42,927 nt of DNA from contig JALXAG010000210.1 in NCBI GenBank assembly GCA_026992315.1, positions 1 through 42,927 on the forward strand, read 5' to 3'. The notes beneath the pieces are model-generated. The model did not search any database and was not told the origin of the DNA. It worked only from the letters and a program-made list of their open reading frames with translations. The position numbers and the translations under genes are program-made. Shown here one piece after another: positions 21,383 through 21,466 of the stretch (position 1 is the first letter of the stretch; each line of letters starts with the position of its first letter). This DNA is from Sneathiellales bacterium (GTDB lineage Bacteria; Pseudomonadota; Alphaproteobacteria; Minwuiales; Minwuiaceae).

Positions 21383-21466
21383 GATTCATCATGCGAATCG
21401 CGTCAACCCATTTTTTATTCGATTCAAGAAGTTATGCCGATTCGCTGAGTCAGAATCTCGCGAATC
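21383..21466. promoter_or_regulatory. Cluster of seven GANTC methylation sites in the ccrM leader
   Basis: GANTC occurs at 21383, 21395, 21421, 21439, 21447, 21453 and 21462 (first base of each), seven sites in 84 bases. At this base composition under one would be expected. It spans the 54-base ccrM leader and the 3' end of rnhB. In Caulobacter, GANTC in the ccrM promoter makes expression depend on methylation state. The same logic is inferred here. A TTGACG hexamer on the minus strand (plus 21399-21404) may be its -35. Confidence 0.75.

Follow-up and report, generated by a model that had tools for sequence, protein, structure and literature searches.

Conserved CcrM sites within a predicted promoter through which ccrM very probably senses its own methylation

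In the window, the whole 42,927-nt stretch of DNA analysed here, a predicted promoter very probably makes the ccrM gene a sensor of its own methylation. Seven GANTC sites lie upstream of this gene, at positions 21383, 21395, 21421, 21439, 21447, 21453 and 21462 (span 21383-21466), and two of them, those at 21383 and 21395, fall inside a conserved predicted promoter of the form TTGAC-N14-GANTCANNNT. This promoter feature is real and conserved; it is partly anticipated in the literature, and its architecture is sharper than any described in the papers compared.

The gene concerned (20278..21369, minus strand) encodes a CcrM-type N6-adenine methyltransferase of 363 aa carrying the Pfam domains N6_N4_Mtase and RAMA, the latter at the C-terminus. 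Its product scores 628 bits with the NCBIfam CcrM equivalog model, under the 830-bit cut-off of that model, and its best solved relative is CcrMI (6pbd, E 2e-171). From this homology, the GANTC specificity of CcrM can be presumed for this organism as well. The gene directly upstream is rnhB, encoding ribonuclease HII (21424..22038, minus strand, start approximate), and this adjacency is common to most relatives. The same genome also encodes gcrA (G000:C229:18603, PF07750 above cut-off).

The initial annotation had reported seven GANTC sites in 84 bp where under one is expected. All seven were located, at -18, -30, -56, -74, -82, -88 and -97 relative to the ccrM ATG (21369, minus strand). At the GANTC density of the window itself, the segment should contain about 0.12 sites; the Poisson probability of observing at least seven is about 8e-11, or 3e-6 once corrected for all start points in the window, and none of 5000 dinucleotide shuffles of the segment attained this number. 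The window as a whole contains 66 GANTC against 190 expected from dinucleotide shuffles, that is about a third. The count was extended beyond the window to a sample of 647 kb, about a fifth of the genome, which holds 819 GANTC (1.27 per kb). Within 84 bp, 85 of these sites begin a pair and 15 begin a triple, and no second place with at least four sites was found across the 647 kb sampled besides the ccrM cluster. A general GANTC richness or an AT bias was ruled out by the depletion of GANTC in the window and by the lack of any other dense cluster in this sample.

On the minus strand, alignment with relatives predicts a -35 hexamer TTGACG at 21401..21406 and a -10 hexamer CAGGAT, of the CANNNT form, at 21378..21383. 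In the predicted architecture, a 17-bp spacer separates a -35 box of sigma70-like form from a -10 box whose first base is also the final one of a CcrM site. This fused site, GAATC at 21383..21387, supplies its C as the first base of the hexamer and stands at an offset of 19 from TTGAC that is the same in 63 relatives. A second site, GATTC at 21395..21399, sits in the spacer immediately past the -35 box, and a third, GAATC at 21421..21425, lies upstream of the -35 box where it overlaps the rnhB stop codon (TGAATC). The full YGAKTCK motif is matched by three of the seven sites (-97, -74 and -30, the last being the spacer site); the -10 site fits YGAKTC only, which forms the core of the GcrA motif known from the literature. 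A scan for consensus promoters gave no match because the -10 box is of the CANNNT form. The -10 box ends 8 bases before the ATG here and 6-8 bases before it in 25 of the 62 relatives' promoters that match the exact pattern given below, which implies an almost leaderless message. The predicted transcription start lies 1-3 nt before the ATG, and relative to it the fused site lies between -12 and -16 and the spacer site between about -24 and -28. The cluster had been assigned to the ccrM leader; it occupies instead the predicted core promoter and its upstream flank. A post-transcriptional role in a leader was ruled out on the same grounds, the conserved sites being promoter elements and the predicted start being so close to the ATG.

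Conservation was assessed on the regions upstream of ccrM in named genomes and in a sample of relatives, which together gave 126 distinct regions. The exact pattern TTGAC-N14-GANTC-A-NNN-T is present in 62 of these 126 regions, against 0.005 expected from shuffled regions, in a collection whose named loci were chosen by similarity to this CcrM and whose samples are not tree-balanced. In 63 regions, a GANTC starts exactly 19 bases beyond the T that opens TTGAC, and almost none starts at the adjacent offsets; 62 of these 63 regions have an A next and then a T three bases on. Gaps other than 14 between TTGAC and GANTC are practically absent (0 at 8-13, a single case at 15 and another at 16). The spacers of the 62 exact promoters contain 53 further GANTC, and 54 GANTC are found among them 13-22 bp upstream of TTGAC, where most relatives have a site. 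At the fused position, the flanks and the central base vary around the four defined letters of GANTC, which are kept; in 56 of the 62 promoters, the template strand has the form YGAKTC at this site. On a broader scale, the 200 bp preceding ccrM contain a mean of 3.7 GANTC against 0.30 in the other windows of the same 107 loci, and this upstream window holds the locus maximum in 73 of the 107. The only copy of the exact motif in this genome is the one at ccrM. Across 60 genomes it has 37 copies, of which 16 are at ccrM, and a reversed control pattern yields 11 copies in all. Culturable relatives that carry the exact promoter include Desertibaculum subflavum, Sneathiella and Magnetospirillum.

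This conservation concerns the core of the promoter and not the number of sites. The nearest relative (G001) has three sites, all in the core (-57, -28 and -18), and the ccrM upstream sequence of a Minwuiaceae MAG (L005) is identical to that of G001, a member of the same family, to which the window probably belongs as well. The next genus has one to three sites, and in a sister genus of the family (g3) a spacer site is kept and the -10 fusion is lost. Several Hyphomicrobiales loci (L010, L058 and L080) are without any GANTC upstream of ccrM. The conservation of the cluster, for which the initial annotation had proposed a check in relatives, therefore holds for the core, found in 62 of the 126 regions, and the number seven is lineage-specific.

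The remaining four sites are located in the last codons of rnhB, on the minus strand: GAATC at 21439..21443, GACTC at 21447..21451, GATTC at 21453..21457 and GATTC at 21462..21466. The two outer ones match YGAKTCK and belong to the arms of a perfect 9-bp inverted repeat, CCGATTCGC / GCGAATCGG, which can be read in the sequence at 21437..21468; its arms (21437-21445 and 21460-21468) are separated by a 14-bp gap enclosing the two other GANTC. Three sites had been counted in rnhB codons. There are in fact four (21439-21466), and a fifth (21421) overlaps the stop codon of rnhB, which ends at 21424. An overlap of this kind (TGANTC) recurs in L005, L086, L088, L094 and L097. The four sites lie past the conserved HRxSFxP motif that ends RNase HII. 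When the last 16 rnhB codons were recoded synonymously, four GANTC were obtained in 7.5e-5 of the draws, in a test chosen after the sites had been seen. This result sustains the earlier proposal that the coding sequence is constrained by regulation and, with the same reservation on the choice of the test, supports selection acting on the DNA itself. The upstream sites turn over among relatives; the promoter core is thus old and the four rnhB sites are a local, lineage-specific elaboration.

It is fairly probable that the cluster constitutes a methylation-responsive ccrM promoter activated by GcrA and sigma70, in which the upstream sites serve for docking or tuning and which generates a cell-cycle feedback. 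The reading of methylation by GcrA and sigma70 is the likeliest mechanism because gcrA is present in the genome. In the fused site, the C takes the place of the T favoured at the first -10 position, and a weak core promoter is therefore to be expected. Once CcrM has methylated the -10 site and the spacer site, the sigma70 cofactor GcrA would be able to help RNA polymerase to open this promoter, and the upstream sites could provide extra GcrA docking or a methylation-dependent tuning. Replication would leave the sites hemimethylated until new CcrM restores their methylation, and ccrM transcription would in this way track both the CcrM made from it and fork passage. The activity of the promoter, the methylation of its sites, the binding of GcrA, its activating sign and the role in the cell cycle are what we infer from the sequence. 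What is known of the link between CcrM level and replication comes mainly from Caulobacter, in which CtrA drives ccrM and the GcrA-type control seems to have been lost; the strong feedback and the sensing of replication passage suggested by the initial annotation would apply here by analogy with that organism.

In Caulobacter and the Rhizobiales, the ccrM promoter is activated by CtrA. The arrangement described here likewise places ccrM under a putative transcriptional control within a cell-cycle circuit. It differs in that no TTAA-N7-TTAA CtrA box is present in the 250 bp upstream of this ccrM. CtrA boxes were also considered as an alternative to GANTC across the relatives and were rejected, a full box being found in only 4 of the 126 regions with no significant association.

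A closer parallel is provided by the sigma70 promoters controlled by GcrA and CcrM in Caulobacter, such as ctrA P1, podJ P2, mipZ and ftsZ, which likewise have CcrM sites in or near the core promoter. In this bacterium, RNA polymerase is recruited by GcrA bound to methylated GANTC (PMC3667746), and promoters with a GANTC between the -35 and -10 boxes fire in mid-cycle (PMC4287350). The sites of ctrA P1, at about -29, and of podJ P2, at -24 (PMC4287350), are comparable to the spacer site reported here, about 24-28 bp before the predicted start. Unlike these promoters, the present one would control ccrM itself, in a closed loop, and it combines a -10-fused site at a fixed distance with seven sites in 84 bp. 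The control of ccrM by GcrA is a prediction already published: in PMC7987155, ccrM is a predicted core GcrA target that was lost in Caulobacterales, and the gene, the mark and the proposed reader are the same as here. In that study, YGAKTCK was scored in 13 species, among which no usable Minwuiales genome figured, and promoter geometry was left aside; neither the -10 fusion nor its presence without GcrA was found in the sections compared. More generally, no description was found of the fixed -10 fusion or of its persistence without detected GcrA in the portions of the literature compared.

The distribution of GcrA complicates this picture. The exact promoter is found in 30 of 77 loci with GcrA and in 16 of 23 loci from genomes without GcrA over threshold, several of the latter genomes being fragmentary. 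The GcrA-undetected genomes with the exact promoter include Magnetospirillum, Telmatospirillum and Oceanibaculum, and isolates of Magnetospirillum sulfuroxidans and Oceanibaculum pacificum are among them. A new search of the GcrA-negative genomes, using an alignment that included Rhodospirillales GcrA, revealed no full-length GcrA, and weak matches to its C-terminal part were obtained only in G009, G079 and G102. In a separate class-level sample, at least two sites precede ccrM in 30 of 37 cases with GcrA and in 3 of 8 without (p 0.02), an association confounded by genome reduction, as the negatives include reduced genomes. GcrA as the sole cause of the architecture is weakened, the exact promoter occurring also outside the GcrA-detected genomes; with 16 of 23 GcrA-undetected loci carrying it, GcrA cannot by itself explain the promoter unless its sequence has drifted too far there to be detected. 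The GcrA-negative genomes with the promoter may have a diverged GcrA or another way of reading the mark, perhaps by RNA polymerase itself. As a separate observation, the resemblance of the short proteins of G009 and G102 (L282 and L283) to GcrA is limited to its C-terminal sigma-binding part, and a possible weak second GcrA match in the genome under study, at G000:C86:17637-17765, resembles these short C-terminal-like proteins of relatives.

Other readings of the cluster must be weighed against activation by GcrA. A negative feedback, in which full methylation of the -10 and spacer sites represses the promoter, the hemimethylated form fires after the passage of the fork and CcrM then shuts itself off, is a tentative possibility that we hold improbable. 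The fused site indeed brings an adenine that can be methylated to the upstream border of the -10 box, and in Caulobacter ctrA P1 is active when hemimethylated, its activation requiring hemimethylation of GANTC (PMC8116508). The Caulobacter ftsZ promoter behaves in the opposite way, being most active when fully methylated (PMC8116508), and the bias of the -10 site towards the YGAKTC orientation suggests an activator with a preference for it. Such a repression fits the GcrA-undetected genomes, as it does not require GcrA. The same 16 loci with the exact architecture would also agree with a GcrA-independent reading of the mark, whether sigma70-RNA polymerase senses it directly or some other protein does so; the short proteins of G009 and G102 that match the sigma-binding part of GcrA are possible candidates. 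This second alternative seems unlikely: the fragmentary state of several of these genomes or a divergence of GcrA could explain its lack of detection, and GcrA is the demonstrated reader in Caulobacter and is encoded in the present genome. It draws further support from the ftsB promoter described below, which retains both GANTC in three GcrA-negative genomes (G061, G079 and G083). Its extension, whereby the CcrM sites in the -10 region of ccrM and ftsB would be sensed across Alphaproteobacteria without GcrA, either by RNA polymerase-sigma70 or by an undescribed reader, forming a self-contained circuit of methylase autoregulation, is just as doubtful.

Several other lineages carry seven to eight GANTC upstream of ccrM in differing upstream layouts, as might be expected of a sink or counting device in which multiple sites need remethylation or titrate CcrM or GcrA and individual sites leave the core promoter unaffected; this is very unlikely, because a sink requires neither the fixed spacing nor the -10 fusion, which are the most conserved features. 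That GANTC is incidental, either as part of the binding site of an unrelated factor or in an AT-rich promoter that happens to hold it, is scarcely credible. Three sites do share GCGAWTCGC-like flanks, and two of these form the inverted repeat. The variation of the flanks and of the central base around the GANTC letters kept at the fused position argues against it, as do the scarcity of GANTC in the rest of the window and the lack of another dense cluster in the 647 kb.

If the fusion of a CcrM site with the -10 box proves widespread in Alphaproteobacteria, direct autoregulation would be the rule, to which the circuit of Caulobacter would be an exception. With its fixed geometry, the promoter offers a precise and mutable test of the effect of adenine methylation at the -10 edge on initiation, and the genomes without detectable GcrA raise the question of the reader of the mark.

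Two CcrM sites also occur in a second conserved promoter, TTGAC-(2-4)-GAATC-(6-7)-TGATTC, observed about 35 bp before ftsB (DivIC family), adjoining eno. In this genome, it is located outside the window (L195, G000:C176:13626-13651, minus strand), and in relatives it corresponds to L227-L234, L236-L240, L243 and L244; 15 of the 20 relatives' matches examined sit upstream of ftsB. No mention of ftsB together with GcrA and CcrM was found in the literature searched. A third recurring pattern, TTGAC...GGAATCGGCsTGTGATTCGAAGAGTCCGC, is represented by L242 and L258 (G059 and G079) and is not upstream of ftsB. Finally, the window contains three GANTC in 26 bp at 27067-27092, some 45-70 bp 5' of the gene starting at 27138, which from a reading of its sequence we take to be D-alanyl-D-alanine carboxypeptidase-like.
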